A stretch of 64,000 nucleotides of DNA, from NCBI GenBank assembly GCA_027491295.1, contig JAIXWK010000003.1, positions 372,001 through 436,000 of the forward strand, read 5' to 3'. A program made the translations under genes and the position numbers. The notes below the pieces were generated by a model that had not been told where the DNA came from, made no database searches, and saw only the letters and a program-made list of their open reading frames with translations. Below are positions 3,819 to 55,434 of the stretch, in pieces. Source of the DNA: Microbacteriaceae bacterium (lineage in GTDB: Bacteria; Actinomycetota; Actinomycetes; Actinomycetales; Microbacteriaceae). The stretch's first letter is position 1; each line of letters begins with the position of its first letter.

Positions 3819-3870
3819 CCAATTGCGTGGTTTACAACCCACTTGGACACAAAATCACTAAATTGACAAC

Positions 3871-8009: not shown

Positions 8010-8857
8010 AACATCAGCGAGGCAAGTTTGCGTCTTGCCGCCAATACTGCATCGTGAGAATCACCGGTCACGATGAATAGGTCGAGTAAGCGCTGCCTAA
8101 TAAGATCGCGCAGCTCAAAATCGGTTGCAAAGCGGGCTAACAAAAGATCAAATGCCGCAGCAGCTTCACCGGTGATCAATACCTGGTCAGCCTCAGCGAA
8201 TAACTTGTCTAGCTCAGTCTCTGTAACTGGATTTTGGAGCCTGTGTAGCAACTGGACTTGAGCTAAGCCGGCTTTGATCTCCTGATCGCTTGGATATTCG
8301 ACCACCAACTTTTCGAACTTCGCCAGTGCGTCAACCAAATCACCGCGCTGAATGGCGTCGACGGCGGCTTGGTGGTCCGGATTGAGCTTTCTTTCGGGTG
8401 CCGCGGCGACCTCGGAGACAGTTACGGTTCCGGTGAGGTTAGATTGGGCAGCCAGCTGCAATACCTGTCCCAGCACCTGAACCAATTGCTCTTGGGTGAC
8501 AACACCCTTGAAGAGTGGCGTTGGCGCACCCGCCAGGATTGCTGCCATGGCTGGAGCCTCAGTGACACCAATGGCCTGGGCAAGTTGCGGTGAAGTCCTA
8601 AGGTCCACTTGAATACCGGCAAAGCGACCCTTGGCGGCAGCAATAATCTGCTCCACAAGACCGCTAACGGCATTTGAGGCCTCAGATCCGTCAACGATAA
8701 GCATTAGGACTGGAACGCTCTCAGAGAGCTGCAGGTAGCGTCTGAGGACTTGTTCGTCGGCAGGAATTAGCCAGCCAGACACCACATTGCCGCTGCTCTG
8801 CGCTGGATTTTGGTTTGCCAGCTTCGATAGGTCGAAAGCCCCAGAAAAATTACTCAT
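8006..8857 (-). CDS. Co-chaperone YbbN/CnoX-like thioredoxin-fold + TPR protein, cysteine-free
   Basis: 283 aa; thioredoxin-like N-terminus (PVLMLIVDGSEASNAVSGLVEQIIAA...QVDLRTSPQLAQAIGVTEAPAMAAILAG) followed by TPR-like C-terminus (QAAVDAIQRGDLVDALAKFEKLVVEYPSDQEIKAGLAQ). No Cys in the translation. Confidence 0.75.
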   Translation of the reverse strand: MSNFSGAFDLSKLANQNPAQSSGNVVSGWLIPADEQVLRRYLQLSESVPVLMLIVDGSEASNAVSGLVEQIIAAAKGRFAGIQVDLRTSPQLAQAIGVTEAPAMAAILAGAPTPLFKGVVTQEQLVQVLGQVLQLAAQSNLTGTVTVSEVAAAPERKLNPDHQAAVDAIQRGDLVDALAKFEKLVVEYPSDQEIKAGLAQVQLLHRLQNPVTETELDKLFAEADQVLITGEAAAAFDLLLARFATDFELRDLIRQRLLDLFIVTGDSHDAVLAARRKLASLMF

Positions 8858-10575
8858 CGCTCACCCAAGGAGACTGCCGTGAGCAACTGCTGGGTTGCAC
8901 CCAAAAGCCTGACTCGGGATTCCGATCCGGCGGCAGGCATATGGAATAGCAACATCGCACCGTACCTAGTTTCGATTCCGGTAGCACTTCCGCCAGCACC
9001 GAGTAGGATGGCTTCCTGGCCTGAGATGGCAACCGCATCGCCGGGCTCCTTAGGAATGATTGTGTAGGTGTCGATCATGTACATGCCTACCAAAGCTCCA
9101 CCCTCACCGGATGTCAGTAGCACCATGCCATCATTTGAGAGCTTGTGGTCGAAGGTGACATTCGCGTTGCTGAGTGTTTCTGCCAGAGTGCGCTGAACCG
9201 AAGAAACATCGTTTATGTACTGGTTCTCGCCATCCATCAGAATACTCCAGGTGGAATCGGGGCCCTCGTTCAAAAGACTTCCGACCGCATTGGCAAGATC
9301 AGTTGGTGGCATAAGCAGGAATTTGCTGTCTTCCTTTACGGTGTTCGCTCCAACCTCTTCGCCGGCGACCTCAGGGAAATCGACCTCAGGCAAAATGTCC
9401 ATGTACTGGTAGAGCTTGTACTGATCTCTGGCGCTGTCTTGACGCAGGACCAACATCGTAAGAGTCTGCTCCCCCGTTACAACCATTACCGAGCGTGGCC
9501 AGGTGTCGGTCGCGCTAGGTAAGAACAACTGAATTGGTTCCGCCAGAAGCGGTGCTGGAGGCGTCGGGGTTTCGGTTCGACGGGCAATGTTGTAGGCGGC
9601 TCTTCTTGCCACCAGTGCAGGTCCTGAAACCCTAACCTCGATGCTTTCGCGATCGAGTTCGGCATCGGCGAGCGCTACCACCTCGGTTATCTCACTCAGG
9701 ATTCGCTTGAGCTGATCTTTGGTCATTACCGGAGTCAAAATGTCTTGTGCCGGAGAGGGGCTGGGGCTCAAAACTGGATTGACGTATTCCGGGGTGCAGC
9801 CGGCTAGCGCCGCTGGAATCAAAGCCAGCGCCACGAACTTGAGCGCTCTGGCCTGTCTTCTGGAGGTGATGGGAGCTTGAGGCTCGGGCTTCTTTTTTCC
9901 AAACTTCGGCAGTTTAGATTTTGCCCTTGGCCGCTTTGGTCCGCTCCAGTTTCTGGTGATTCGTGTCTTGCGATAGCTGGTTAGGAACAACCACAAACTC
10001 CAAAGTGCGCCGATGATCATCAGAGCCAATCCGATCAACGTGATTGGGGCAATTGGAGCACCCTGGTCTTCCAGGTCCCATTCGATCATGATCTTCCTTG
10101 GGGCTAGGTCGATTCCTTTGGCAGCAATCAAAACGCCAACCTCGTTACCCTCTGGGACGGATAGCTTGCCCTCGAAATTCTCTGCAACCTCGAGCCTCCA
10201 AAGATCAGAGCCGCGTGGGTCGGCAAGTTCTCCGCTACCGCTGCGCTCGGTCTCAGAGAGCAGCACCTGCTCTTTTTCCTGATTTACCGATAGCCGAGCC
10301 TCGGTGTATTGAGCCTTACCTATCCAGCCAACAATGTCCGACTCTCTGCCGGCGGCAAGGAAGACTTCGCCATCGTTATTGGCGGTGACTGAGACCTTGC
10401 CCGGGTAGGCGGTTAGCACCTTGTTGGGAATCATCACGTAAGTGGTTGGTGTGGTGAATTCCGTCTGGGCAACAATCAAGTTCAACGGCTGATTTTCCAG
10501 CTGGTTCACCAAGCCAATTGCGGTCAGCGTCAGTCCAACCACAAAGGTGGTCATGGAAAGCCAAAAACGCAGCAA
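8854..10575 (-). CDS. Conserved actinobacterial membrane protein with internal lipobox-like segment, unknown function
   Basis: 573 aa; N-terminal TM, mid TM (TLIGLALMIIGALWSLWLFL), second hydrophobic segment ending LAGC; 4-nt overlap with the downstream gene. Confidence 0.7.
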   Translation of the reverse strand: MLRFWLSMTTFVVGLTLTAIGLVNQLENQPLNLIVAQTEFTTPTTYVMIPNKVLTAYPGKVSVTANNDGEVFLAAGRESDIVGWIGKAQYTEARLSVNQEKEQVLLSETERSGSGELADPRGSDLWRLEVAENFEGKLSVPEGNEVGVLIAAKGIDLAPRKIMIEWDLEDQGAPIAPITLIGLALMIIGALWSLWLFLTSYRKTRITRNWSGPKRPRAKSKLPKFGKKKPEPQAPITSRRQARALKFVALALIPAALAGCTPEYVNPVLSPSPSPAQDILTPVMTKDQLKRILSEITEVVALADAELDRESIEVRVSGPALVARRAAYNIARRTETPTPPAPLLAEPIQLFLPSATDTWPRSVMVVTGEQTLTMLVLRQDSARDQYKLYQYMDILPEVDFPEVAGEEVGANTVKEDSKFLLMPPTDLANAVGSLLNEGPDSTWSILMDGENQYINDVSSVQRTLAETLSNANVTFDHKLSNDGMVLLTSGEGGALVGMYMIDTYTIIPKEPGDAVAISGQEAILLGAGGSATGIETRYGAMLLFHMPAAGSESRVRLLGATQQLLTAVSLGER

Positions 10576-33124: not shown

Positions 33125-33476
33125 AAAGGCCCTCGGGCTTTTAGGGTCGGCGGTTGCCGGCGTATTCGTTGCTGTTGCTGGAACGGTTGCTCACCAAACT
33201 CAGGTGAGTGGCACTCCGGTTGGCTTAGTTGTAGCAGGCATTGTGGTGTTGGCATTTGCAATGCAATCAAGAATGATCACTGGCAAACTCGGCGCGATTG
33301 TCTTTGCTGCAGCGCTTGCCGCAACTATCTTTTGGACTGGGCTGGAATTCCACGAGGACAAGATGATCCCAGCGAATCAGCAGGGTTTGATCTGGTCCTA
33401 CGGAGCAATCGGACTGGCTGCAATTGTTGTGATTTGGCCAAAGCTCTCTAAAACACTCTGGAGCAAAAAGATCTAA
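33108..33476 (+). CDS. Small membrane protein, unknown function
   Basis: About 122 aa with 3-4 predicted TM helices; GTG at 33108 is a plausible start overlapping the typA end (track start 33060). Confidence 0.7.
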   Translation: MPASPRKALGLLGSAVAGVFVAVAGTVAHQTQVSGTPVGLVVAGIVVLAFAMQSRMITGKLGAIVFAAALAATIFWTGLEFHEDKMIPANQQGLIWSYGAIGLAAIVVIWPKLSKTLWSKKI

Positions 33477-34594
33477 AGGTTGTAAAAACCATGGGCAATC
33501 TTTGCGACATCATCGGCATCTGCCTTGGTGCGAATAACTTCTCTATTGCGATCGGAGTGAGCTTGGTTTTCGGCAAGCTTTAGCCCCTCAAGAATTGCCT
33601 TCTGAACGCCTTCTAAGGTGATCCCTGTCACTTTCACACCAGAATCGGTAAACCATTCATCACAGCACGCGGTGGCGGTTTGAACCGGGATAGCACCCAT
33701 TGCCATTGACTCCAGGAGCGAAGTGCTGATGCCATCCGATAGTGACAGCCCGACATAAACTTTAGACTCGGCAAACAACTCCAACATTTCTTCGTGCGTG
33801 AGAGCACCAATCAGGTGGGTGCTGATATCTAGCGATGTCGACTCGGCAAGGCTCGCGGCCGCCTTAGCGGTAACCGTGTTGCATGAGTAGAAAACAATCT
33901 TGTAATCCTTGAGTTCTGGCGCGATATTCCGAATTGCCTCAACTGCGGTCAGCGCCCTACCCACCCAGCCGTGGTATCCCTTTATGGCGATTACCTTTCG
34001 GTCGACGAGCAGCGGCACTGGTCGGCTCAGTAGCTCTTTGGAGAAACCTCCGGCGTTAGGGATGACCGGCATCACCTGACCTTGGAACCCAAGGCTCTTA
34101 GCAAGAGCAACATCTCTATTGCATTCGCAGGAGTAGTAGTCAGCAACAGAAAGAAGGTTCTTTAGCTTGTCGCGGTGCTTGGGGAATTGCTGGAACCAAA
34201 AGATATCGCTCCCCCAGTTTGTAGCAATCAACTTTGCAGACGACTGTGACGCCATTGCCTTCGTCGCGATGTAGCCAGCATTTTGCAATTCCATCGCGTG
34301 GACAAACTGCGGCTTGAATGACCTGATCGCACTTTTTACAAGAATGGACCTAAACCAGTTGTCGACGAACTTGTCCGCGATCCACAGTGGCAGGCCGAAG
34401 AGTTTGCTCAGCGGGAAGAGTTTGTAACTTGCCTTGCTAGAGCCCGAGACCAAGGCTTTTAGGTTCTTGTGTACTTTGCGATGCGGTGAAGATGGGAAAA
34501 GTAAGAATTCAATGTCTTGATCTTGAAACTGCGATAGCCACCTGGCGGAGTGAATGCTGTCATACATGCAGATGACAAGGATTCTCTTGCGCAT
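33473..34594 (-). CDS. Glycosyltransferase (GT-B / GT4-like)
   Basis: MRKRILVICMYDSIHSARWLSQF, ATNWGSDIFWFQ, GALTHEEMLELFAESKVYVGLSLSDGISTSLLESMAMGAIPVQT; ATG 34594 preceded by ccggggag. Confidence 0.82.
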   Translation of the reverse strand: MRKRILVICMYDSIHSARWLSQFQDQDIEFLLFPSSPHRKVHKNLKALVSGSSKASYKLFPLSKLFGLPLWIADKFVDNWFRSILVKSAIRSFKPQFVHAMELQNAGYIATKAMASQSSAKLIATNWGSDIFWFQQFPKHRDKLKNLLSVADYYSCECNRDVALAKSLGFQGQVMPVIPNAGGFSKELLSRPVPLLVDRKVIAIKGYHGWVGRALTAVEAIRNIAPELKDYKIVFYSCNTVTAKAAASLAESTSLDISTHLIGALTHEEMLELFAESKVYVGLSLSDGISTSLLESMAMGAIPVQTATACCDEWFTDSGVKVTGITLEGVQKAILEGLKLAENQAHSDRNREVIRTKADADDVAKIAHGFYNL

Positions 34595-34623
34595 TTTCTC
34601 CCCGGTCAAAGAATTCCCTTAGC

Positions 34624-37398: not shown

Positions 37399-39522
37399 TT
37401 AGCTGCGCTTGAGCGCTGCCGCATCTGCTAGTTCTAATGCCTTTTGAGTTTCGGCAGGCAATCCGCCATCGATCAAGTCTTGAGCCAGCCCCTTGCACTG
37501 CTGAATAAGCTCGGCGTCCTTGATGACGCGCAAGAGCTTGAGCTGCGACTTTCCGCCAGATTGCAAGTTGCCAAGCACGTCGCCTTCGCCGCGAATTTCA
37601 AGATCCAATTCACTGAGCTTGAAGCCGTCAACAGTCGATGCAACTGCATCGAGTCTTTGCATAGCCAAAGATCCTGACTCACTGGCTGAAACCATTAGAC
37701 AAACGCCCGGGTGAGCACCACGCCCCACTCGACCACGAAGCTGGTGCAGCTGAGAAATGCCAAACCGATCGGCATCCAAGATCACCATTGCTGTGGCATT
37801 AGGGACGTTCACACCAACCTCGATAACCGTGGTGGAAACCAAAACCTGCACTTCACCAGCGGTAAAGGCCTGCATCACCGCAGTTTTTTCCTCAAGCGAT
37901 TGCCTGCCGTGCATAAGCCCAATGGTTAGCCCTGCCAAAGCCGGGTTTAGCTTGAGCGCTTCAACAACCTCGACCGCAGCAGCTGGAGTTGGCCCCTGCT
38001 CGACTTCTTCTTCGGATTCAGTCGGTTCAGAACCTTCTTCAACCAACTCGCCATCGATCCTCGGGCAGACCACAAAGGCCTGGCGACCCGCCTGAACCTC
38101 TTCTGCCACTCGTTGCCAGACTCTTGCTACCAGCGCCGGCTTTGCCAGCTCAACAACGTGAGTCGAGATTGGTTGCCTGCCCTTAGGGAGCTCTGCCAAG
38201 GTCGAAATTTCTAGGTCACCAAAGACCGTTATTGCCATGGTTCTTGGGATTGGAGTGGCGGTCATAGTTAGAACGTGTGGAGCAGTCTTGCCCTTGGCTC
38301 GAAGGGCTTCTCTTTGGCCAACACCAAAGCGATGCTGCTCGTCTACGACGACAAACGAGAGGTCGAAGAACTGAACCTTCTCGCTAATCAAGGCGTGAGT
38401 TCCTATTGCCAAAAGACACTTTCCACTGGCGATATCCAGCATCGCGATCTTGCGTTCAGCAGTAGACATTTGACCGGTGAGTAGGCGCAGTCCCAGGGCT
38501 CTAGACAGTTCGTCTCCGAGCGAATTCTTAATTGCCTCAAAGTGTTGTGATGCCAATACCTCTGTTGGTGCCAGCAGGGCACTCTGCCCACCGGATTGGG
38601 CAACTGTCAGAACCGCACGTAGCGCAACTAGCGTCTTACCGGATCCAACTTCGCCCTGCAAAAGTCTGTGCATGGGGTGGCCGGAGCAAAGGTCACCCTC
38701 AATCTCCCGCCCCACTATCCGCTGACCGTCTGTGAGCTCAAATGGCAATCGTTTATCAAATAGGCCGAGCAGGTCACCCGGGGTTCTAACCGAGGCCTCA
38801 ACTTGATTTCGCTTTGACCTTGACTGCGCTAACTGGATTTGCAAGAGCATTGCCTCGTGAAAACGCAGTGAGTCCCTGGCGGCCTGCCACTCGCCATCAA
38901 CCTTTGGGACGTGGATCTGATGGATAGCTTGTGAGAGGTTGAGGTGCTTGTGTTTTTTCAACAGGCTTGCAGGAAGAACTTCATTTATTTCGCCTATTGC
39001 CGAAAGTGCGAGCTCGACAGACTTTTGGATTTTCCAGGTGCTTAGGGTTCCAGATGCCGGATAGATAGGGATCGGTAGTTCCGCCCAAGCTTTTGCGTCT
39101 GAATCGTCAATCTCCTGTGAGAACAGCTCGTAATCCGGATGAGCAAGTTGCAGCTTGTTTGAAAAGACGCCGATTCGACCGCTGAAGAGTCCGCGGACGC
39201 CCGCGTGAAGTTCTTTCTCTCGCCAGTGCTGATTGAAAAATGCCAAAGTTAGAGTCTTGGAGCCATCAGTAATGACAACTTCGAGGAGGTTCCCAGTTCT
39301 TCCCTTGAGCCGTCTAGAGGATGTGGAAACCACCTCTCCGACCACGGTCACTACCTCGCCAATTGGCAAAGTTGAAATTGGAGTGAGTTCGCCACGTTTT
39401 GAATAACGCCTTGGGTAATGCTCTAAGAGCTCAGCAATAGTCGAGATTCCAAACTGCTTGACGAAAGCCTTAGCCGTTCGATCGCCAAGGATCGAATCCA
39501 GTTTCAAGGTTTCCTTAAGCAA
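37399..39522 (-). CDS. recG: ATP-dependent DNA helicase RecG
   Basis: LLQGEVGSGKTLVALRAVL, VVDEQHRFGVGQREALRAKG, MTATPIPRTMAITVFGDLE, HQLRGRVGRGAHPGVCLMV. Confidence 0.97.
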   Translation of the reverse strand: MLKETLKLDSILGDRTAKAFVKQFGISTIAELLEHYPRRYSKRGELTPISTLPIGEVVTVVGEVVSTSSRRLKGRTGNLLEVVITDGSKTLTLAFFNQHWREKELHAGVRGLFSGRIGVFSNKLQLAHPDYELFSQEIDDSDAKAWAELPIPIYPASGTLSTWKIQKSVELALSAIGEINEVLPASLLKKHKHLNLSQAIHQIHVPKVDGEWQAARDSLRFHEAMLLQIQLAQSRSKRNQVEASVRTPGDLLGLFDKRLPFELTDGQRIVGREIEGDLCSGHPMHRLLQGEVGSGKTLVALRAVLTVAQSGGQSALLAPTEVLASQHFEAIKNSLGDELSRALGLRLLTGQMSTAERKIAMLDIASGKCLLAIGTHALISEKVQFFDLSFVVVDEQHRFGVGQREALRAKGKTAPHVLTMTATPIPRTMAITVFGDLEISTLAELPKGRQPISTHVVELAKPALVARVWQRVAEEVQAGRQAFVVCPRIDGELVEEGSEPTESEEEVEQGPTPAAAVEVVEALKLNPALAGLTIGLMHGRQSLEEKTAVMQAFTAGEVQVLVSTTVIEVGVNVPNATAMVILDADRFGISQLHQLRGRVGRGAHPGVCLMVSASESGSLAMQRLDAVASTVDGFKLSELDLEIRGEGDVLGNLQSGGKSQLKLLRVIKDAELIQQCKGLAQDLIDGGLPAETQKALELADAAALKRS

Positions 39523-39523
39523 G

Positions 39524-40375
39524 TTAGTCGGCGAATTCTGGTGAACTTGGACCTGAGGTAGAGGAAAGAGCTGGACGCAAATCCTTCAGTGCCTCAAGAA
39601 GAGTCGAGAGGCTAATCTCGAAACCCGCGTCTGGTACTTCGACTGCAATGCCTAAATTTAAGGCGCTTTCATCGACAACGTTCCTCAAAAAATCTAGGCA
39701 CCAAGCCAGAGAATTTAGGCCTAAAAGATTTATCTGAATGTGCTTGACGAACCCGGTCTCTAGAAGGTCTCTTGCTTCGGAAAACGCCTGAAGTTTATCT
39801 TCAGTGTGATGCGAGAAATGATTTCCCAAGTCTAAACAAAAACCTATTTGGCCAATCGTTCCGTTGCTTCCGTGAGCAAGCGCTAATAATGAATGAACGC
39901 TTGAAAGTCCGTGGTTGTCGAATGAGGCCGGCAAGTTTTCAATCAATAACGAAACGCCTGCATCGAACGCTTGTCGGGCAAGTTCCAAATAGCCGCTTCG
40001 AATGTCGAGTTCGGACATAGGTGAAGTGAGCACTCTCGAACTTGGTGACCCAAGAATTAGAAATTCTGCATCGAGGTTCTTTGCAATCTGAGAGGCGGCA
40101 GCAACTTGGCCTTGCGCGGTAGAAAACCCCGGCTCTGTTATTGCTACGCATGAGTCTGTTCCAAAGAAAAAACCTTGGAGGCCCTTGATGCTAATGTTGC
40201 CGCTTTTCCAGGTTTTGAAAAAACCATCTCCCTCCCCCTCAGCCAAGGGCTTGAGCTGACCATACCTCGAAGGCATCAGGTCAATAAAATCGACTAAGTC
40301 AGTTACTCCTGAATCAATAAACGCGAGATCTTGTTTAGGGCCCCAAAAAGACTGCACGGCACCTAAGTCAATCAA
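39524..40375 (-). CDS. TIM-barrel protein, sugar-phosphate isomerase/epimerase-like
   Basis: 283 aa; xylose-isomerase/AP-endonuclease-2-like features (LLIENLPASFDNHGLSS..., IGFCLDLGNHFSHH, HIQINLLGLNSL, IAVEVPDAGFE). Confidence 0.6.
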   Translation of the reverse strand: MIDLGAVQSFWGPKQDLAFIDSGVTDLVDFIDLMPSRYGQLKPLAEGEGDGFFKTWKSGNISIKGLQGFFFGTDSCVAITEPGFSTAQGQVAAASQIAKNLDAEFLILGSPSSRVLTSPMSELDIRSGYLELARQAFDAGVSLLIENLPASFDNHGLSSVHSLLALAHGSNGTIGQIGFCLDLGNHFSHHTEDKLQAFSEARDLLETGFVKHIQINLLGLNSLAWCLDFLRNVVDESALNLGIAVEVPDAGFEISLSTLLEALKDLRPALSSTSGPSSPEFAD

Positions 40376-41087
40376 GATAGTCCTCTACGGCAGACAGAGA
40401 ATCCTCAAAACTCACAGCGTATCCACGATTAAAGTACTTACTCCTAACGTCGTAATGGACACTCGGGGCTTGTGGATTCAACTCTACGTTCGCGATTGAT
40501 GCGATTTGGCTGAGAGCTAGGGGTGGCGCTGTCAGATTCACAATGGGACCAAACTTCTCAAAGTCTGGCGAGATGAATTCGTGGAGCTTCCTGAGGGGGA
40601 AGAATTGCATAGTAGTCGTCGGTGAGATTGCCTCTAACCGGTTGTGATGTTTTATGTCGTACACGGCGTTTTTCTTCAAGCCTTCTCCCACCAGCCCGCC
40701 GAGTCTGAAGATTTTCACTTGAGGAAATCTTGAAGTCAAGAATTCTTCCAGCAAACGTCTATGAAATCCATATGGTGAGCCTGAATCAGTGAGATCGGAG
40801 TCCTCGTCAGAGTTATTTGGATTTGCATAGACATCCACAGTACTCATGTGGATAACCTTCTCCAGCGTCATCGAATCCAGTCTTGAGATCAGCATCTTGA
40901 CTTGATCTAAATCAGATTTCGGATCTAAGTTCGCCTTCCATTTTTCCGCCCCTGGGGCTGCAACTACTGCGAGGTCGAAATGGGACTCATCACTTGACGA
41001 TTGGCTCGTTTGCATGACCTCAAAAGTGACCCTAGTGGCGATGGACTTGCCAACCAGTCCACCAGCTCCAATCAATACCTTTCTCAT
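40368..41087 (-). CDS. NAD-dependent epimerase/dehydratase (SDR) family
   Basis: 239 aa; MRKVLIGAGGLVGKSIATRV (GxGGxxG), VIHMSTVDVYAN, GSPYGFHRRLLEEFL (YxxxR variant). Confidence 0.7.
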   Translation of the reverse strand: MRKVLIGAGGLVGKSIATRVTFEVMQTSQSSSDESHFDLAVVAAPGAEKWKANLDPKSDLDQVKMLISRLDSMTLEKVIHMSTVDVYANPNNSDEDSDLTDSGSPYGFHRRLLEEFLTSRFPQVKIFRLGGLVGEGLKKNAVYDIKHHNRLEAISPTTTMQFFPLRKLHEFISPDFEKFGPIVNLTAPPLALSQIASIANVELNPQAPSVHYDVRSKYFNRGYAVSFEDSLSAVEDYLD

Positions 41088-42109
41088 TGGTGCTGGAACT
41101 CCTTGATAATTTTTTCAATTTCTTTTTGGGCTGAAAAAATAGCATCGATTTTGCCCGCTCTGATAGCCGCTAGGTTGCCTTCGCGATGAACAAAAACACT
41201 ACGGTCGGAACTAGATTGTGAGGTCTTGATTTTCTTGGCAATGAATCGTGGTTTTATGCTTGAGCAACTAGAAGCCAGCGAGGGGATGGTTTCGAGAACA
41301 TGTCGTGCCATCTCATCAAGCCTCGTGCGAATAAGCCTCTCATCGGGTTCCGCTAGAAAGGCGTCGATCTCTGACTCATCCTCGGATTGTGCCAAAACGC
41401 TGAATTCAACATGCGAGAGGCTCATGAGCCCGTGGGTTTCGGTCGGATAGATTGACCAAAATGGACCATCAACAAGGGTCATAGCCCCGAATCCGAGATC
41501 CTGATCTAGGGTGAATTCGGCAATTAGAGTTGCTTCAAATAATGCATCGGGCAGCTTTGTTAGGCGGGATGAGTAAGTTGCATCCACAACAAGATCGAAG
41601 TCGTTTCTTAGCAATTCGAGATCTCTCGACTCGAGCGCTTCCCCAAAATCCACTTGCCCGTCTAGAAAATCACTGAAATGTCGTCGAGCGCGAGAGGGTA
41701 GAACAAGCCTCTCCTCGCTGAGAAGAAAACCTTCCATTCCAAGTATCGGTTCAAACTCGTGATTGCCTATTTCTTGGAACGGAATTCCGCTGCCATCGAG
41801 AATTATTTTGGCAGTTTCAAAATCGATGATGGATCTCGCGCTTGGCACAGCATAGATGTTTCTTTCAATTGAGGAAGACAGCTCAGGGTACTCAGACTTA
41901 AATTTTTGAAAGCCCTGCAACGACTGCCTTCGCGTTTCAGCGCTTCGAAGGTAGTGAAAACCAAGGTGCAGCCGCAATTGATTTTTATCTCCTGCCCCTG
42001 ATAACAGGGCTTGCGATGCTTCCTTAATCCTGACGTCGTGACCGTCATTCAAGAGTGTTGAGGCTATGTGACAGCCGTACCAACCACCACCCACTACAAG
42101 TATCCTCAT
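41084..42109 (-). CDS. FAD-dependent oxidoreductase (DAO-like)
   Basis: MRILVVGGGWYGCHIASTLLNDGHDVRIKEAS (Rossmann dinucleotide motif) from ATG 42109; 4-nt overlap with 40368..41087. Confidence 0.75.
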   Translation of the reverse strand: MRILVVGGGWYGCHIASTLLNDGHDVRIKEASQALLSGAGDKNQLRLHLGFHYLRSAETRRQSLQGFQKFKSEYPELSSSIERNIYAVPSARSIIDFETAKIILDGSGIPFQEIGNHEFEPILGMEGFLLSEERLVLPSRARRHFSDFLDGQVDFGEALESRDLELLRNDFDLVVDATYSSRLTKLPDALFEATLIAEFTLDQDLGFGAMTLVDGPFWSIYPTETHGLMSLSHVEFSVLAQSEDESEIDAFLAEPDERLIRTRLDEMARHVLETIPSLASSCSSIKPRFIAKKIKTSQSSSDRSVFVHREGNLAAIRAGKIDAIFSAQKEIEKIIKEFQHQ

Positions 42110-42122
42110 GGTGAACGCTTTC

Positions 42123-42151
42123 TCAATAAAGTAACGACTTGACCCTATCAA
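42123..42151 (-). promoter_or_regulatory. Possible sigma70-like promoter of the FAD oxidoreductase cassette
   Basis: Minus strand TTGATA - 17 nt - TATTGA within the 66-bp divergent gap to rsmD. Pattern match only. Confidence 0.3.
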
Positions 42152-42175
42152 CCGACCAGGACGCCAGGAGCTCGA

Positions 42176-42742
42176 TTGTCAAGAATCATTGCCGGAACCA
42201 TAGGGTCCTTGCAGCTCAAGCCCGCTGCAAAGGCAACCCGCCCAACCTCGGACCGAGTAAAAGAGAGCTTGTTCGCCAAGCTCGATTCGATGGGCGTAAT
42301 CGAAGGTGCAAAGGTTCTAGATCTATTCGCTGGTACCGGCGCTTTAGGGCTTGAGTCGGCTTCTAGAGGCGCAGCCTCTGTCGAACTGGTTGAGCGCGAT
42401 CGCAATGCATTTGGCTTACTTGAGCAGAATGTGAAAAGCAGCCTTAGCTCCTTTGAAAAGCAGGGAATCTCGACAAAGATTCAAGCCCACAACCTAGACG
42501 CGCAGCGCTACCTAAAGTCTGCATTCGCAGGCTTTGACCTTGTCTTTATTGACCCGCCCTACGACTTTCCCAATGCAGAGCTGGAGCAGCTCCTGCCAGC
42601 GGTCGCTGGCCTTTTGAGCGATGTGGGGCTTGTGGTCGTGGAGAGATCTAGTCGTAGCGAACAGCTTGAAATTGATGTTCTGGAGCTGCAAAGTTCAAAA
42701 ACCTACGGCGACACCGCAGTTTGGATTTACGAAAAACCTTAG
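42176..42742 (+). CDS. rsmD: 16S rRNA (guanine966-N2)-methyltransferase RsmD
   Basis: MSRIIAGTIGSLQLKPAAKATRPTSDRVKESLFAKLD, VLDLFAGTGALGLESASRGA, LVFIDPPYDF; TTG start. Confidence 0.95.
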   Translation: MSRIIAGTIGSLQLKPAAKATRPTSDRVKESLFAKLDSMGVIEGAKVLDLFAGTGALGLESASRGAASVELVERDRNAFGLLEQNVKSSLSSFEKQGISTKIQAHNLDAQRYLKSAFAGFDLVFIDPPYDFPNAELEQLLPAVAGLLSDVGLVVVERSSRSEQLEIDVLELQSSKTYGDTAVWIYEKP

Positions 42743-45496: not shown

Positions 45497-46666
45497 GTGA
45501 TGAAAGAATTAAGGAAATTGATTTTCATTTCCCCCGGCCTAATCGAATTAGGAGATTCTGGGCACTACTCCACTTTGCACAAATCCTTGGAAAGAGGCTG
45601 CCTTCAGAATGGATTAACCTTGGCGATTTCAGGAGATCCAAAAAAAGTTCCCGCCAAAACGATGGGCGATGAAGGTCGTTATTGCGCCACATTAGTTTAT
45701 GAAGGAAATCTGAGTCTCCTCCGTGACATTGTCGGCAGCCCACTCAATGTTCCTACCTACTTCAATTTCCTTAGGTCAAATGATTATTTGCTTATGTGGC
45801 TGTATCTCAAGATAAAGGGTTCGAGAAGCTTCGATGGAACCAGGAAGGTAATGAACGCCTTGATCCAAAAAGGTTGGGTGTTTTCCGCGGATTCAGGGAA
45901 TTTAAAAACGCGATTATTGAGCATGGGGCTTCCGGTAAAGACTGCGTTTCCATTTTCATCAGCCTTCTCGGGAAAGAGAAATTTCAGACAAAGTGAATGG
46001 CAACTAGGGATGATGGCAGAATCCAGATTTGATTGGTATGTCAACTTTGCAATGGCAAGAGTTGTCTCGTTCTTGTGGCCAAAATTGAGAATCAAATTAT
46101 TGAATACAAATAAAGATTTTTACACTTCCGGTAGGCAAAGGGCGGACTCAATGGTGATCATTACGCTTCCCGCCAAAGGTGAAGAGTATCTGGACAGGCT
46201 CTCGGCGCAATTTTGGTTTCTTCCGGGAAAATCAAGCCACCACATTTTTGGCAGCTCAGGAAGATCCCTCGACATAATGGCAAATCGTGGAATCGTTTTC
46301 ACAAGAAAATTTAATTCCCTCGGAGCAGGCTCTTTGAACGAACAGGCGGCGTGCTTCCATACTCCTTTTCCAAGACTGCAAGCAATAATTTTTGCCATCA
46401 AACGTTTGAAAGATTCAGAATATCTAGATTCGTCTCTAGACAAACCCGATCGCACCGCCCAGCAAACAATTGCTTCTATCGCCGGAGAATTGCTTGAAAG
46501 ACGGGATGGTCCCGATCCGACCGCTTTGGATTTAGAAGGGCTGAATAGGGAAATTGAAGAATTTGATTATTTCTGCTCTAAAAAGGGCACGGCTCTCCTT
46601 TTTCGCATCTTGCTTCGCCTGCCTCGACGAGCCTTATGGAAATTGACGAACAACTTGTTTGTTTAG
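45497..46666 (+). CDS. Hypothetical protein at start of glycan cluster (possible glycosyltransferase)
   Basis: 389 aa, locally AT-rich; LIFISPGLIELGDSGHYSTLHKSLERGCLQNG start resembles a GT-B N-terminus, but no diagnostic catalytic motif recognised. Confidence 0.6.
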   Translation: MMKELRKLIFISPGLIELGDSGHYSTLHKSLERGCLQNGLTLAISGDPKKVPAKTMGDEGRYCATLVYEGNLSLLRDIVGSPLNVPTYFNFLRSNDYLLMWLYLKIKGSRSFDGTRKVMNALIQKGWVFSADSGNLKTRLLSMGLPVKTAFPFSSAFSGKRNFRQSEWQLGMMAESRFDWYVNFAMARVVSFLWPKLRIKLLNTNKDFYTSGRQRADSMVIITLPAKGEEYLDRLSAQFWFLPGKSSHHIFGSSGRSLDIMANRGIVFTRKFNSLGAGSLNEQAACFHTPFPRLQAIIFAIKRLKDSEYLDSSLDKPDRTAQQTIASIAGELLERRDGPDPTALDLEGLNREIEEFDYFCSKKGTALLFRILLRLPRRALWKLTNNLFV

Positions 46667-48166: not shown

Positions 48167-49363
48167 TTGCCAAAAATCTCTATGGTGCTCGGCATCAGAC
48201 CTGATGTAATTCGTGCAAGCCTTATTATCAAGCACCTAAAGTCAGCACTTGGTAGCAACTTCGAATTTGTTTGGTCTGGACAGCACTACAGCGACAACAT
48301 GAAGGACATCTTCTTCAGACAGTTAGAGGTTCCGCAGCCAGATGTAACCCTGCAACTCGATACGGCATCAGACCAATCCATGATTGGATCTCTAATCTCA
48401 AGCCTAGGTTCCTACCTGGACGAGGCAAAGCCCGACGCAGTTATCTTCCTTGGGGATACAAACACCGTCACTGGCTCAATTGCTGTGGCTGCCAAGAACA
48501 TACCCATCGTGCACATCGAAGGTTGCATGAGGTCTTACGACTGGCGTATGCCGGAAGAGAAGTTCAGAACCGCCATCGATCACCTGGCCGATGTTATCTA
48601 CGCGTACGTTGACGAATACAAGCAGCAGGGCGTAATCGAAGGTCTTGACCCTGACAACATAATCGTCACTGGCAATCCAATCGTCGATGTTCTAGAGCAC
48701 TACTTCCGTTCCGGAAAAGTTCGGCTTTCGGACTCTGAGCGCTCGGAATTGTTCGCCTCCTACGGTTATGAGGGTGGCGAGCTTTGGTCTATGACATGCC
48801 ACCGACGTGAGAACGTGGACAGCAAGGATTCCCTTTCACAAATTTTGAAACTTGCTTCCATGTGTCCAGGTATCGTCGTTTTTCCTGCTGGCTATCGCAC
48901 ACAGGCGCGTCTGAGAGAGTTTGGCCTAGACATTCCAGGAAACGTGAAGGTTATAGATCCGATTGGCTATGCGGAACTTATGGAGCTAATCAACTCGTCG
49001 ACCGCTGTGCTCACTGATTCTGGAACTATTGTCGAAGAAGCAGCAGTGCTCGGTGTGCCTTCAGTTCAAATGAGGACCTCTACAGAGCGCCCCCAGGTTT
49101 ATGACTGCGGAGGTTCAGTAAAGTTTGACCCTCACGCGACTCACACAGATGCAGAATTAGGGAGCATCATCGCCTCAGCAGCCGACAGGCGCGGCAACAG
49201 CTGGACCCATACTCTCGGAGACGGCAACGCCTCCCAGCGAATTGCGGAGGATCTAATTTCGCGTTTCAAGTCCGGAAATTGGTCTGGTCACGCACCAAAC
49301 CCAAAGAGTCGGCCAATCTACCGAAACTACGGTTACGGAATTGGTGAGCTTGGAAGAGCCTAG
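48167..49363 (+). CDS. wecB: UDP-N-acetylglucosamine 2-epimerase (non-hydrolysing, WecB/CapG-like)
   Basis: GIRPDVIRASLIIKHL, VFLGDTNTVTGSIAVAAKNIPIVHIEGCMRSYDWRMPEEKFRTAIDHLAD, HRRENVDSKDSL, LTDSGTIVEEAAVLGVPSVQMRTSTERP. Confidence 0.9.
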   Translation: MPKISMVLGIRPDVIRASLIIKHLKSALGSNFEFVWSGQHYSDNMKDIFFRQLEVPQPDVTLQLDTASDQSMIGSLISSLGSYLDEAKPDAVIFLGDTNTVTGSIAVAAKNIPIVHIEGCMRSYDWRMPEEKFRTAIDHLADVIYAYVDEYKQQGVIEGLDPDNIIVTGNPIVDVLEHYFRSGKVRLSDSERSELFASYGYEGGELWSMTCHRRENVDSKDSLSQILKLASMCPGIVVFPAGYRTQARLREFGLDIPGNVKVIDPIGYAELMELINSSTAVLTDSGTIVEEAAVLGVPSVQMRTSTERPQVYDCGGSVKFDPHATHTDAELGSIIASAADRRGNSWTHTLGDGNASQRIAEDLISRFKSGNWSGHAPNPKSRPIYRNYGYGIGELGRA

Positions 49364-50241
49364 ATAGGCATTTGCTCGATCATCTTCTCGACAGTAGGCG
49401 CTTCTTCGTAGCCAGCATTCTTCCAGAGTCTCGCCACAACCTCAGGGTTGACAGTGCTGAGAGTTCTATCGATAACTTTGCCAGATGCCTTTGGGGTTAC
49501 GGTAATGTCCGAGCGACCGGCACGGATGGCGATTGCTCGCACCAAGTTCTCCTTGGTCAAGGTTGAGCCTGGAATCACGTGGGTTACGCCAGAAACAAAG
49601 TCGTTGTGCTCAATGATTCCTCGACAGAGTCGACCAAAGTGATATGTGGTAACACCGTTCCAAACGTGGTCGGTGAAGCCGAAAATCTCTGCATCTTTTA
49701 CTTGGTTTCTAACCCACTCGAAGAGGGAGGTGCTCCGACCGTGCTCCGGGCCAATAATCGAAACTCTCAAGTGCATCATCGATGATGATGGAACCTCGCC
49801 AAGGCTCTTTGTTTTTCCATAAACATCGAGGGCATCGAACTCATCGGTTTCTGAGTACTTTCCCTGCAGACCTGAATAAACGCAGTCAGTGGCAATCTGA
49901 ATAACCTTTAGGCCGTGAGCGTCTGAGTAGCGTGCCAACTGATCAGGGAAAATGCCATTTACCAACATCGCTATCCTGCGCTGGTCAGCGTTGTCATCCT
50001 TGATGTGAGGCTTGATGATGCCGATGCAGTTGATAACCCAGTCACCAGCTGCAGCGATGGGATCCAACTTGCTCAAATCATCTTTGATGGCATCAAAATC
50101 AACGACTTTGATTGAGCCCAAATCGCTAGAGCTTGATCCAGCACGAGCCGTGCCTACAATCTCGTGCCCAGAGCCCTTGAACGCCTCAAGGACTCCTCTT
50201 CCCAGCATTCCGGTGACGCCAAGGATGATTACTTTAGACAT
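49360..50241 (-). CDS. RmlD-like sugar-nucleotide reductase (SDR)
   Basis: MSKVIILGVTGMLGRGVLEAF, VINCIGIIKPHI, IQIATDCVYSGLQGKYSETDEFDALDVYGKTKSLGE (YxxxK). Confidence 0.85.
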   Translation of the reverse strand: MSKVIILGVTGMLGRGVLEAFKGSGHEIVGTARAGSSSSDLGSIKVVDFDAIKDDLSKLDPIAAAGDWVINCIGIIKPHIKDDNADQRRIAMLVNGIFPDQLARYSDAHGLKVIQIATDCVYSGLQGKYSETDEFDALDVYGKTKSLGEVPSSSMMHLRVSIIGPEHGRSTSLFEWVRNQVKDAEIFGFTDHVWNGVTTYHFGRLCRGIIEHNDFVSGVTHVIPGSTLTKENLVRAIAIRAGRSDITVTPKASGKVIDRTLSTVNPEVVARLWKNAGYEEAPTVEKMIEQMPI

Positions 50242-51446
50242 TACTTTCCTTTTCTAAGGCTCAGTTGATTCAGCGAATCCTCTAGCGCTCTAGTCGTTGC
50301 TTCGATTGAGAACTTGGAATTCAAAACTTCTTTCTGAATTCTAATTTGCCGTGTCCTCTCAGGCTTGGAGGCGTGAAGTACTTCAATGGCTTTCGCGAGG
50401 ACTTGGGACGAATTTTCCGTCCAGACAAGTCCAGACTCGTCACCAAAAGCTGCGTATAGTCCCTCGAGCTTGGTGCTCACCGTTGGAATCCCTACTGCCA
50501 TGTATTGCAGGACCTTGTGAGGAAAGGCTGCTCCAGCAACGGTTGAGACCTGAAGAGGATTGATGGCCACGTTCCCAAGCGTCATGTATCTAGGGAGGTC
50601 ATGGAAAGGAACAAATCCAGTGAAAACCACCTTTTCTTGAAGTTTGTGCTTTTCCACCAATTCGCGCAACAGGGCCTCTTGCTCGCCACCTCCAATCAAT
50701 AGCAATTTGAGATCTGGAGTCGACAAAAGTTGCTCAGGCACTTTGTTTATGACGTCGTCAAGACCTGAGAAATAGAAAAAGCTTCCCATGTACATGACAA
50801 CTTTGTCGGTAGTCGCAATTCCCAGGGCGGATGCAAGACTTTCGTCTCTGGGTGTTTGCCTAAAGATTCGCTCATCAAGGGGTGGGTAGTGCATAACAAT
50901 CTTGTTCGCAAAACCACCGCCCATCAACTCAAGAACGTACTTGGACATGGCCGGATTGTTTGTTGAAACTTCGGTTGCCAATTTGAAGCAAACTTTCTCA
51001 AACAGAGCAATTAGAGGATTCCAAAGCGACTTTCGAATCTTGCTGGCTACGTCCAACGCACGTTGCAGGACTGGCACCTTGTAGAAACGTCCCAGAAGGC
51101 CCACCTGCAGTCCATAGGTCGGCACCGCATAGTTGAGAATGACGTCGAATTCGCCGTCCCTAATCAAGGTCCTGAGAGGTCGGATTGAGGAGAAAATTGC
51201 CCAAATGCGATCTAATCCAAAAATGCCAAGACGATGGGGCGTTACTAATCTAATCTTGGCCTGATTGTGAATTCGACCGCTGATAACTCGGTCTCTAGGG
51301 TCAGAAAGAGTGTCTCGAGTAGCACCCTCATCGAATTCAAAAAAGGTTACATCGTGCCCATTTAGGGCAAGTAGTTCGGGAAATTCATGAATCTCGTAAA
51401 CAACTTTTCTCAGGTAGCTCACTTCATGAACGACGAGAATTTTCAT
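50241..51446 (-). CDS. Glycosyltransferase family 4
   Basis: MKILVVHEVSYLRKVVYEIHEFPELLALNGHDVTFFEFD; LLLIGGGEQEALLRELVEKHKLQEKVVFTGFVPFHDLPRYMTLGNVAINPL...VLQYMAVGIPTVSTKLEGL. Confidence 0.88.
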   Translation of the reverse strand: MKILVVHEVSYLRKVVYEIHEFPELLALNGHDVTFFEFDEGATRDTLSDPRDRVISGRIHNQAKIRLVTPHRLGIFGLDRIWAIFSSIRPLRTLIRDGEFDVILNYAVPTYGLQVGLLGRFYKVPVLQRALDVASKIRKSLWNPLIALFEKVCFKLATEVSTNNPAMSKYVLELMGGGFANKIVMHYPPLDERIFRQTPRDESLASALGIATTDKVVMYMGSFFYFSGLDDVINKVPEQLLSTPDLKLLLIGGGEQEALLRELVEKHKLQEKVVFTGFVPFHDLPRYMTLGNVAINPLQVSTVAGAAFPHKVLQYMAVGIPTVSTKLEGLYAAFGDESGLVWTENSSQVLAKAIEVLHASKPERTRQIRIQKEVLNSKFSIEATTRALEDSLNQLSLRKGK

Positions 51447-52654
51447 GCTTTTAGTCTTGTCTCCATGTCATTCACAACGTACTCAGCGAAACTAAAGCAT
51501 GAGGTCCATCCAGGTGAAACAGCATTCAACACCTGAGTCGAATCCTCATCACCTTCGATTACAAAGTCCATTTCCAGTTTGCCCTCGGTCTTGTCAAAAA
51601 GCTGTGCACGAATTCCCGGCTTTCCGGCAACAGTGAACTTCGAAACGTCGATCTTGGAGCTAAGTTTTGCAGCCTCGCCAAGAAGATGAGTTCTCGATAA
51701 CTTTGGAAGCTCTGTCTTGACAAGAGACCAAACGTCGTGGTGCTTGGAGGCGATAAAACGAGGGTAGTTGGCCAGGATGCCGAGCATCTCGTTTAACTTG
51801 AGACCATCGAAGAGCCCATATTGCTCTCTGGACAAAACTGGAATAGCAGTTGGGCCGACCTTGACGTCTCCCGAGGCCGTTTTTGTGAAGTGCACACCCA
51901 AAAATGGATTTCTTGGATCCGGTGTTGGGTAAATATGCCTATTCAAAGTTCCCTTGAGGCTCGGTGCGTAGTAGTAGAGCCCGATGAACGGGATCATCGA
52001 ATACTTGGATCCGAAACCAAGCTCCTTCGCGACGACATCCGAATAGAGCCCGGAGGCGTTGATGAGGTGGCCATACTCAAAGACCTCGCCTCCTTTAACA
52101 TAAGCGCGTTTGTCGTGAATCTTTTCGACATGCATGTTGAAGAGAATTCGGACTCCAGATTTAATGAGCAATTCTTCAAGCTTGGTCGCAACAGACCCAG
52201 GGTCCGCAACCGCTGTGTTTGGCGACCACAGCGCCATGTCAATGGTTTCAGCTAGGGGTTCAAGCTCCGCAAGCCGGGCTGTGTCTACAAGTTCGACATC
52301 GACACCATTAGCGATGCCTCTTCTGTGAAGTTCAGTCAGAACTGGAACATCCTCTGGCTTTTGTGCGACGACAACTTTTCCATTTTGAGAGATAGGCAGG
52401 TTATTGTCTAGGCAGAAGCGTTTCATGCGCTCGTTGCCGTCCCTGGTTAGTTTTGCCTTGAGGGATTCTGGTGAATAGTAGAAACCGGCATGAATTACTC
52501 CGGAGTTTCGACCTGACGCGTGCAATGCGACACCCGACTCTTTTTCGAGAATCAAAACGCTCGCCGCTGGAAAGCGTGTGCGAATCTCCTGAGCTATAGC
52601 AAGCCCGACTATGCCACCGCCAACGATTAAGAAATCGGCCCTATTTGAGTCCAT
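51443..52654 (-). CDS. FAD-dependent oxidoreductase, L-2-hydroxyglutarate oxidase (LhgO)-like
   Basis: ADFLIVGGGIVGLAIAQEIRTRFPAASVLILEKESGVALHASGRNSGVIHAGFYYSPESLKAKLTRDGN; ...FLGVHFTKTASGDVKVGPTAIPVL. Confidence 0.85.
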   Translation of the reverse strand: MDSNRADFLIVGGGIVGLAIAQEIRTRFPAASVLILEKESGVALHASGRNSGVIHAGFYYSPESLKAKLTRDGNERMKRFCLDNNLPISQNGKVVVAQKPEDVPVLTELHRRGIANGVDVELVDTARLAELEPLAETIDMALWSPNTAVADPGSVATKLEELLIKSGVRILFNMHVEKIHDKRAYVKGGEVFEYGHLINASGLYSDVVAKELGFGSKYSMIPFIGLYYYAPSLKGTLNRHIYPTPDPRNPFLGVHFTKTASGDVKVGPTAIPVLSREQYGLFDGLKLNEMLGILANYPRFIASKHHDVWSLVKTELPKLSRTHLLGEAAKLSSKIDVSKFTVAGKPGIRAQLFDKTEGKLEMDFVIEGDEDSTQVLNAVSPGWTSCFSFAEYVVNDMETRLKA

Positions 52655-52656
52655 GA

Positions 52657-54369
52657 TTACTCGGCGATCTTATGAAGCGTGTAACCCTCACCTGGAATCG
52701 TTTCAAGCACATTACCTGCGTATGTGAGATCACCATTTACGAGTACGTATTTTGTTCCCTCTGGAACCAGAGATGCATCCAAGACCGAAGCCGCCCCAAA
52801 AAGGTCATATTTGATCTTCGCCGAGTCTGCCCAGATCGCAACGTTGGTTGCTTCAAAACGCGAAGTCGCGACAATCCAGGTGGAGTCAACCTGCTCAGGT
52901 GTGAGGTTCGCCCTCAAATACTGACCCGCTTTGTCCTGAGCATTGAGCTCACCGCGGAACCCCTGGTACTGGTCCTGGATCTGATATCCAGTTCCAACCA
53001 TGGTGACTGGCAATAGACCGATGAGAACTAGTGGCGTGTACTTCGGGAAGAATGCGAAAACAAGCAAAGAGGCAAAGCCAAACAGAGCTGCCGCATTGAA
53101 AACGTCTTGATTCACAACCAATCCAGCAAGGTTTGGAGCGTCAGCAATCTGAATAGTCAAGGTGCCAAAGAACCCAGAGAACGCAGGAGTGATAAGGACC
53201 AACATGACAACGGCAAGTGGAAGTCGAATCCAGATTTTGGTCTCAGCCATGAACTTGGACGTCAAGGCCGCAAGACCCGCCAGCGGCACCACAATAAACA
53301 AGAAGTCGTAGTAGCGCTCAAGAACACGTGTGGTGTGGTCGTCACCACCGCCTGTAATCCAACCGGTGAAGACAACTACTTCAATTACAAGACTGAACAG
53401 CCAGATGAACGCGAAAAGCGAGAGCGCTGTGACCTTTGTTAGCTCCTTGGTTCGCGCAAGCTCTATGACACCAACGGTGACACCAATAATGGCAACACCC
53501 ATAAGCGCGGCAATGGTCAGCATGTGAATGTTGAATTGCGTGCCGAACAGGCTGAGCACTCCATTCATAGGAGTTGTGGCAACTGCAGAAGCGGGCGCTA
53601 CTGAACCTGCGGGTGCGGTCACGCCAATTTGCTCAACTACTCCAGCATTTAGGTACTGACCAAAGAAGCTCAAGGCCTTCGGTCCAGCCACCAAGAATCC
53701 AATAATGACGCGACCAAGGATTGCGCCGACTGATATTGCGCCGACTGCCTTGAAAAGTGGGCCGAATCGATGCTTCGCGTTGGTCAAGCCCAAAACAACC
53801 AGGAAAATACCGATTGCAATAGCCGACAACCATGCGTGTGGCTTTACAAGTGATGTAACACCAATCAAAGCTCCAACTACCGCCCAGTCCTTCCATGCAT
53901 AGGTGTCAGCAGCCTTCAAGACGGAAGCGAAAACCAAGCTGAGGAAGAAGAAGTACATCGATTCCGGTAGGAACATCGAGGTGTAAACACTGAGCGGTGA
54001 GAGCCCAGCCAAAATTGTGAATGCGAAGGCGATCCAGTAGTTCATATATCGCTTAGCGATGATGAAAACTACCGTCAAGAACCCAATAAAAAACAGAAGG
54101 TTCAGAAGCTTGCCGCAGGTATAGAAAGCATCGCCACAAACGTTGGTCGACGAATAGACCAAGTTGAAAAGGTAGTTGGAGAAGTCACCGGCCGGAGATG
54201 GGTCCCAAGGAGAGGCCTTGCGGGCATTGATCGAGTAAAGGTACTCGTCACCCAAGATAGCTGGGTTCACCATGGCAACTCTTGAGTAAACCCAGGCAGC
54301 TACCGCCAGCATTGAGCCAGCAAATGCCAGGTTTTTCCAGTCTTTCACAGCAACAAGTAGGTTCTTCAA
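52657..54369 (-). CDS. Polytopic membrane glycosyltransferase-like protein (GT39/GT-C-like)
   Basis: 570 aa, about 12 hydrophobic segments; AILGDEYLYSINAR early acidic motif, as in lipid-carrier-dependent GT-C enzymes; flanked by GT2 and GT4. Confidence 0.65.
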   Translation of the reverse strand: MKNLLVAVKDWKNLAFAGSMLAVAAWVYSRVAMVNPAILGDEYLYSINARKASPWDPSPAGDFSNYLFNLVYSSTNVCGDAFYTCGKLLNLLFFIGFLTVVFIIAKRYMNYWIAFAFTILAGLSPLSVYTSMFLPESMYFFFLSLVFASVLKAADTYAWKDWAVVGALIGVTSLVKPHAWLSAIAIGIFLVVLGLTNAKHRFGPLFKAVGAISVGAILGRVIIGFLVAGPKALSFFGQYLNAGVVEQIGVTAPAGSVAPASAVATTPMNGVLSLFGTQFNIHMLTIAALMGVAIIGVTVGVIELARTKELTKVTALSLFAFIWLFSLVIEVVVFTGWITGGGDDHTTRVLERYYDFLFIVVPLAGLAALTSKFMAETKIWIRLPLAVVMLVLITPAFSGFFGTLTIQIADAPNLAGLVVNQDVFNAAALFGFASLLVFAFFPKYTPLVLIGLLPVTMVGTGYQIQDQYQGFRGELNAQDKAGQYLRANLTPEQVDSTWIVATSRFEATNVAIWADSAKIKYDLFGAASVLDASLVPEGTKYVLVNGDLTYAGNVLETIPGEGYTLHKIAE

Positions 54370-54381
54370 ACCAATCCTCGA

Positions 54382-55326
54382 TTATCTCTTTTGTCTTGGA
54401 ACCCTAGGTTCCGATTGAACGTCGTAAGACAAGAATGAAAGTAGCAGCTGAACCCCGAGAATCAGGGCAACCGCGGAGAGAGTCACCTGACCGGCAGTGG
54501 TAGCACGGCCAGCTTCAGACGCCTCTAGGTACCTCGCAATACCAAACCATGCACCGAAAACCGTGAAGCCAAATCCCAAAGGTAGTTCAATGCTGGCAAC
54601 CGACCACTCGCGCAGGTAGTACTTGTAAAAAACTCGCTTCCACAGGTTCACGGTGTGGCGCCAAGGGAACTCCACCAAAACCTTGCCGATCTTTAGGTTG
54701 CTCTTCTCTTCTCCGTAAACGGCCTCCATTGGCACGTCAACCACTACAGCGTTTGTAATGTTGAGCCTGAATAGCAGATCGGACTCGAAGAAGTAGGTCT
54801 TACGAAGCTTGTCCAGGTGAATCGCAGTTAGTGCTTTGCGGTGAATTGCGGTAAAGCCATTGGTTGGATCAGTGATGGACCAGTATCCCGATGAAATTTT
54901 GGACCAAAGTGAGAGAACTGCATTTCCAAATATTCGGATCTTTGGCATGGCAAAGAGATTTTCAAGGCTGTCAAAACGATTTCCCTTGGCGTAGTCAGCT
55001 TCGCCGTTTAGAACAGGCCTTGCGATGGTTTCGATAAGGCTTGGGTCCATTTGCCCATCGCCGTCGACTTTTACAATGACATCCATGCCATCGGCTAAAG
55101 CTGCTCGGTATCCAGTAACAACCGCTCCGCCGACTCCCTGGTTCGTTTCATGGCGAATAACGGAGACCCGCTTGTCTTTGCACTTTTTGCGAACCAAGTC
55201 GCCTGAATTGTCCGGGCAGGCATCGTCAATCACATAAATGCGCTCTACCTCAGGCCCGATCCCGGCAAGAACGTCGAGAATGTGTGAGGTCACTCGGTAT
55301 GACGGAACAACTACTGCAAGACGCAC
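54382..55326 (-). CDS. Glycosyltransferase family 2 (polyprenyl-phosphate mannose synthase-like)
   Basis: GTG start 55326: MRLAVVVPSYRVTSHILDVLAGIGPEVERIYVIDDACPDNSGDLV, VIVKVDGDGQMDPSLI, NRF...NGFTAIHRKAL; C-terminal TM helices. Confidence 0.88.
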   Translation of the reverse strand: MRLAVVVPSYRVTSHILDVLAGIGPEVERIYVIDDACPDNSGDLVRKKCKDKRVSVIRHETNQGVGGAVVTGYRAALADGMDVIVKVDGDGQMDPSLIETIARPVLNGEADYAKGNRFDSLENLFAMPKIRIFGNAVLSLWSKISSGYWSITDPTNGFTAIHRKALTAIHLDKLRKTYFFESDLLFRLNITNAVVVDVPMEAVYGEEKSNLKIGKVLVEFPWRHTVNLWKRVFYKYYLREWSVASIELPLGFGFTVFGAWFGIARYLEASEAGRATTAGQVTLSAVALILGVQLLLSFLSYDVQSEPRVPRQKR

Positions 55327-55434
55327 AATAATCTCCCCTACTTCGACGTTGTCTAACTCTACCGAGCCAATGAATCCAGACAAACCTCTAACAAACACTA
55401 ATGTCTGGCTTTGGTAAACCTTAGGCTTGTCCTA

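Follow-up and report, generated by a model that had tools for sequence, protein, structure and literature searches.

Three adjoining genes in the 64,000-nt stretch of Microbacteriaceae DNA that we analysed (the window) form a horizontally acquired cassette that was recently inserted between recG and rsmD and that probably remodels sugars for the synthesis of cell-surface glycans. ORF calls on the window placed three overlapping frames on the minus strand, predicted to encode an FAD-dependent oxidoreductase, a short-chain dehydrogenase/reductase (SDR) and a TIM-barrel protein (Table 1). The FAD and SDR genes overlap by 4 nt (41084-41087) and the SDR and TIM-barrel genes by 8 nt (40368-40375), in agreement with the initial annotation, which had described a tightly overlapping minus-strand trio at this place. 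A TTG start is also possible for the FAD gene, extending it to 42151. Because the stop of the TIM-barrel gene lies 1 nt before the start of recG, the triad now stands first in the recG-coaD-DUF177-rnc-fpg row.

Table 1. Coordinates of the triad, its flanks and a possible partner gene in the window
Feature	Position	Strand	Remarks
recG	37399-39522	minus	one flank of the insert; first of the recG-coaD-DUF177-rnc-fpg row
TIM-barrel gene	39524-40375	minus	283 aa
SDR gene	40368-41087	minus	239 aa
FAD protein gene	41084-42109	minus	ATG start; 341 aa
Intergenic stretch between the divergent FAD gene and rsmD	42110-42175		66 nt; one boundary of the insert
rsmD	42176-42742	plus	other flank; also divergent in every sister genome
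Gene for a protein of no matched family	45497-46666	plus	389 aa; GC 44%; absent from sister genomes; possible partner (speculative)

Among 22 other genomes of the genus, the FAD gene was found only in G014 (99% identical). In 19 others, those in which rsmD could be located, recG and rsmD are directly adjacent and divergent without the insert; the nearest sister, G019, is one with an empty site, and its flanking genes are 89-99% identical to those of the window. The empty junction in 19 sisters and the presence of the triad only in the window genome and the near-identical G014 therefore point to a recent insertion, bearing out the earlier view of an insertion into a conserved block. The same annotation had called rsmD inverted, which did not hold: the divergent arrangement is normal in the genus and therefore ancestral, so that the triad was gained and rsmD was not rearranged. 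The GC content of the triad is 47.4% against a window mean of 52.1%, with lower values in just 0.3% of the 2.6-kb bins of the window. All three reading frames are intact in both carriers, and the synonymous and non-synonymous differences between them (1 and 3 in the FAD gene, 2 and 2 in the SDR gene, 6 and 2 in the TIM-barrel gene) are so few that selection can hardly be judged from them.

The fold of each product was assigned from profiles and models, and the folds named initially (FAD oxidoreductase, NAD-epimerase and TIM-barrel isomerase-like) proved right, with every Pfam match (DAO, 2e-3; Epimerase, 7e-4; AP_endonuc_2, 1e-5) under its curated cut-off. The FAD protein carries the FAD motif GGGWYG at residues 7-12 and the family motif NQLRLHLGFHYLR at residues 43-55, and its model (pLDDT 90) matched the D-amino-acid-oxidase, L-2-hydroxyglutarate dehydrogenase and glycerophosphate oxidase fold in a structure search; the product is thus predicted to be an FAD-dependent oxidoreductase of the D-amino-acid-oxidase/glycerophosphate-oxidase fold. 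A family profile built without the window sequence recovered it at 4e-96. FAD relatives lacking the partners also exist, namely three actinobacterial ones and those at L025, L027 and L028.

By its sequence, the second product is a predicted short-chain dehydrogenase/reductase of the extended, nucleotide-sugar type, with GAGGLVG at residues 7-13, ST at 82-83 and Y106xxxR110 replacing YxxxK. The signature YGx[HN]R in place of YxxxK is shared by all 27 triads (Y106GFHR110 in the window), and with GxxGxVG it marks the SDR of the triad family; a profile built without the window sequence recovered the window SDR at 1e-54. In an SDR-led search of the order, eight of ten SDR-positive Micrococcales genomes had the SDR family without the FAD and TIM-barrel genes. 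Since most other SDR relatives in the order stand outside triads, the SDR alone is no marker of the triad. One Micrococcales lineage (L094-L099) has a related SDR-like protein reading YARHR, and the usual GxxGxxG was absent in the four inspected.

The third product is predicted to be a xylose-isomerase-like TIM barrel resembling ketose 3-epimerases, although its model is of moderate quality (pLDDT 73). Ketose 3-epimerases and L-xylulose-5-phosphate 3-epimerase ranked first in both the profile and fold searches, and a 3-keto-glucoside 4-epimerase was among the profile matches. In the model, the putative metal ligands E146, D182, Q214 and E246 map within or at the ends of four strands. The Glu, the Asp and the last Glu are kept in all 26 other TIM barrels; the third ligand is His or Gln, being His in most relatives and Gln in the window. 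Gln is likewise found at L014, L022 and L024, triads that adjoin flagellin or FliD genes. The window protein diverges strongly from its relatives (15-23%), and the family profile built without it matched at 2e-7, with the ligands E-D-Q-E against the family E-D-H-E. The subfamily motifs LQxxxFG and G(S/A)PxxR read LQGFFFG and GSPSSR in the window.

We defined the FAD-SDR-TIM triad family in this analysis from its relatives; the window triad has the three genes adjacent, on one strand and with the FAD gene first, as in the arrangement called type A below. A scan led by the FAD protein, in which each species was represented by one genome and loci outside the window's genus were counted, yielded 21 loci, nearly all in Proteobacteria at 35-40% identity. 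The SDR and then the TIM-barrel gene directly follow the FAD gene in 18 of the 21, in the same order and on the same strand with gaps of -8 to +23 nt, a count that carries two caveats (the TIM-barrel gene is broken at L015 and runs off the contig at L009). Across 72,556 plasmid records, FAD-led and SDR-led searches gave 11 and 10 matches, respectively, nine of them common to both, and each of the eight FAD-positive records opened also had the TIM-barrel and SDR genes. All three genes are present on the Psychrobacter plasmid pA22P4, which was found through the SDR, and a Mesorhizobium plasmid has a triad interrupted by insertion sequences. Within the window's family, five of 400 genomes were FAD-positive and all five had the full triad, four of them of a second type (type B). 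Profiles built without the window sequence also recovered the distant plasmid members.

The same gene order recurs across unrelated phyla, and the grouping is not due to chance. Over 27 triads, the pairwise distances of each protein correlate with those of the other two (r = 0.72, 0.73 and 0.89; matched in 0 of 2000 permutations), a correlation in which co-evolution is not separated from shared ancestry. Searches of NCBIfam and PDB sequences with the single proteins gave no usable family. The genes are not scattered, nor did the searches assign them to a well-known pathway. Open-licence full texts held no description of the gene combination, of GtrA with the FAD protein and isomerase, of the flagellin islands or of pA22P4, which is weak evidence of novelty.

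The neighbours of the triad in other bacteria include glycosylation genes. Type A is a bare FAD-SDR-TIM row, found in the window and at most chromosomal proteobacterial loci. At L014, L022 and L024 a large protein is also encoded nearby, with methyltransferase and glycosyltransferase domains at L014; elsewhere, type A triads lie near RgpF, GT1, GT2 and nucleotide-sugar genes. Type B is divergent, occurs on plasmids and at the actinobacterial loci L064, L066, L067 and L104-L106, and adds a glycosyltransferase whose profile matches ArnC (5e-16) and GtrB (5e-12). Most type B plasmids also encode a second GT2, a multi-span protein and a transporter, which is either GtrA or SMR; GtrA is present at L067 too (1e-19). 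The 10.8-kb plasmid pA22P4 encodes, apart from replication and mobilisation functions, only the SDR, TIM-barrel, SMR and FAD proteins, a multi-span protein and a double GT2 that is a fusion. Its fusion is a single ORF (L068, 5410-7188) joining the ArnC/GtrB-like GT2 to a second GT2, of which the public gene table has the second half alone. One neighbour family of about 620 aa (c3) gave only a sub-threshold GT61 match. These results, together with the co-occurrence of the three families, support the original suggestion of a small carbohydrate-modifying pathway (oxidise, isomerise/epimerise).

The recG neighbourhood is seldom shared, recG being present at one of 33 other loci searched (L067) and near none of three further triads of the family, all of type B. 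The exception, L067 (G050, 2713-10514), belongs to another genus of the family and has its type B triad, with GtrA, immediately downstream of recG-coaD; two triad types therefore reached the recG neighbourhood independently, at a hot spot or by coincidence.

Within the window, the polysaccharide genes at 46.7-57 kb are the likely consumers of the triad product, and the gene at 45497 may perhaps be another. The latter is specific to the two triad carriers, and none of the triad loci encodes a relative of its product. Its position between ferredoxin and epimerase genes is a swap site for surface-glycan genes, occupied in the nearest sister by two glycosyltransferase-like genes (L072, 15050-16680). 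The polysaccharide cluster at 49360-55398 has its own DAO-family FAD protein (51443-52654), an RmlD-like SDR, a GT4, a PMT-like membrane protein and a GT2. This second FAD and SDR pairing, 10 kb away, is not linked to the insert because it is 97-98% conserved in G019. A glycosyltransferase-4-like gene (33473-34609) lies between fpg and typA and is 86% identical in G019; the fpg and typA neighbourhoods of G012 and G003 showed no such gene.

We consider it probable, on balance, that the triad is a horizontally acquired sugar-remodelling cassette serving cell-surface glycan synthesis. An oxidise-flip-reduce conversion that yields a rare sugar from an ordinary one is very probable because the same three enzymes recur, almost always together and usually near surface or flagellar sugar machinery. 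We infer as follows in what order the steps run, on which substrate, on what carrier (a nucleotide or polyprenyl phosphate) and to what end in this organism. A common activated sugar would have one of its hydroxyls oxidised to a ketone by the FAD enzyme, the TIM barrel, acting with a metal, would invert or shift the carbon beside the ketone, and the SDR would reduce the ketone with NAD(P)H to give a rare epimer, which a glycosyltransferase would then attach to a surface polymer. The type A loci, which have no lipid-carrier genes, favour a nucleotide-sugar substrate used by both types, whereas type B, embedded in three-component systems, speaks for a lipid-linked substrate like that of DprE1/DprE2. 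More tentatively, FAD-SDR-TIM could be a previously undescribed pathway that supplies a single kind of rare sugar to two delivery routes, a lipid-linked three-component route and soluble glycosyltransferases at flagellin or exopolysaccharide loci, and thus a surface-changing module that moves between phyla.

A polyprenyl-phosphate-linked sugar as the substrate of the triad, in a system of the GtrB-GtrA-GT-C type and in the manner of DprE1/DprE2, is rather unlikely. The partners of type B (the ArnC/GtrB-like glycosyltransferase, the GtrA or SMR transporter and the multi-span protein) and the minimal Psychrobacter plasmid, which has no nucleotide-sugar genes, are consistent with such a substrate. 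However, the type A triads, which are nearest to that of the window and in some cases lie at flagellin loci, have no such partners, and neither GtrA (PF04138) nor the type B glycosyltransferase was found in the window genome. DprE1, moreover, is a VAO-type flavoenzyme and not of the DAO fold; the listed matches of the window FAD protein were DAO-family folds, with no DprE1-type match among them.

A catabolic set that oxidises and isomerises a scavenged sugar acid or polyol in the manner of IolE/IolO, and that lies beside recG by chance, is improbable. The relatives of the TIM barrel do include the 5-keto-L-gluconate epimerase IolO (4.6e-12, below the NCBIfam cut-off) besides the ketose 3-epimerases, but no sugar-uptake transporter, kinase or regulator accompanied the triad at the annotated loci, where its neighbours are glycosyltransferase, flagellin and nucleotide-sugar genes. 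The Pfam name AP_endonuc_2, the position before recG, the presence of endonuclease IV among the fold matches and the L067 locus could suggest a DNA-repair addition to recG; this is very improbable, as a repair function would have no use for FAD and SDR partners and recG is near so few other triads, and we dropped an endonuclease IV identity for the TIM barrel since sugar epimerases outrank it in both profile and fold searches. A phage-defence cassette between housekeeping genes, to which the recent gain, accessory nature and tight packing might point, is scarcely credible and was dropped: PADLOC returned nothing beyond a weak FAD-domain match, phage records gave no match and the relatives lie in glycan loci.

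The sugar-remodelling cassette we favour can be compared with several known systems. In dTDP-L-rhamnose synthesis, RmlB, RmlC and RmlD make a keto-sugar, epimerise a neighbouring carbon and reduce the product with an SDR. The logic proposed for the triad is the same, with the difference that three other enzyme families are used and that the keto group would arise by flavin oxidation and not by dehydration. The ketose 3-epimerases, UlaE and IolO are the best profile and fold matches of the triad TIM barrel and share its putative Glu-Asp-(His/Gln)-Glu ligand set, whereas the triad proteins form a subfamily of their own, with distinct motifs and scores below the NCBIfam cut-offs. The partners of type B resemble the Gtr system of three-component periplasmic glycosylation (GtrA, GtrB and GT-C), to which the triad would add three sugar-remodelling enzymes; a GtrA-like flippase and a GtrB-like glycosyltransferase accompany the triad in type B relatives, and the system is absent from the window locus. 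If true, a new sugar-making route would be part of how unrelated bacteria alter their surface through a few swapped genes, and the near-minimal set on the 10.8-kb plasmid brings the pathway within reach of direct tests in a laboratory strain. The mycobacterial DprE1/DprE2, which convert decaprenyl-phosphoryl ribose to arabinose and have been described with three-component logic (PMC11127046), are similar in that one enzyme oxidises and a second reduces to give an epimer, and their genes are associated with a GtrA/SMR-type exporter (Rv3789), as in type B triads (PMC11127046); they differ in lacking a TIM-barrel epimerase, and an exporter is missing from the window. The authors of that work noted that, to their knowledge, no further epimerases were involved in O-antigen side-chain glycosylation systems (PMC11127046), and the type B triads are candidates for such enzymes.
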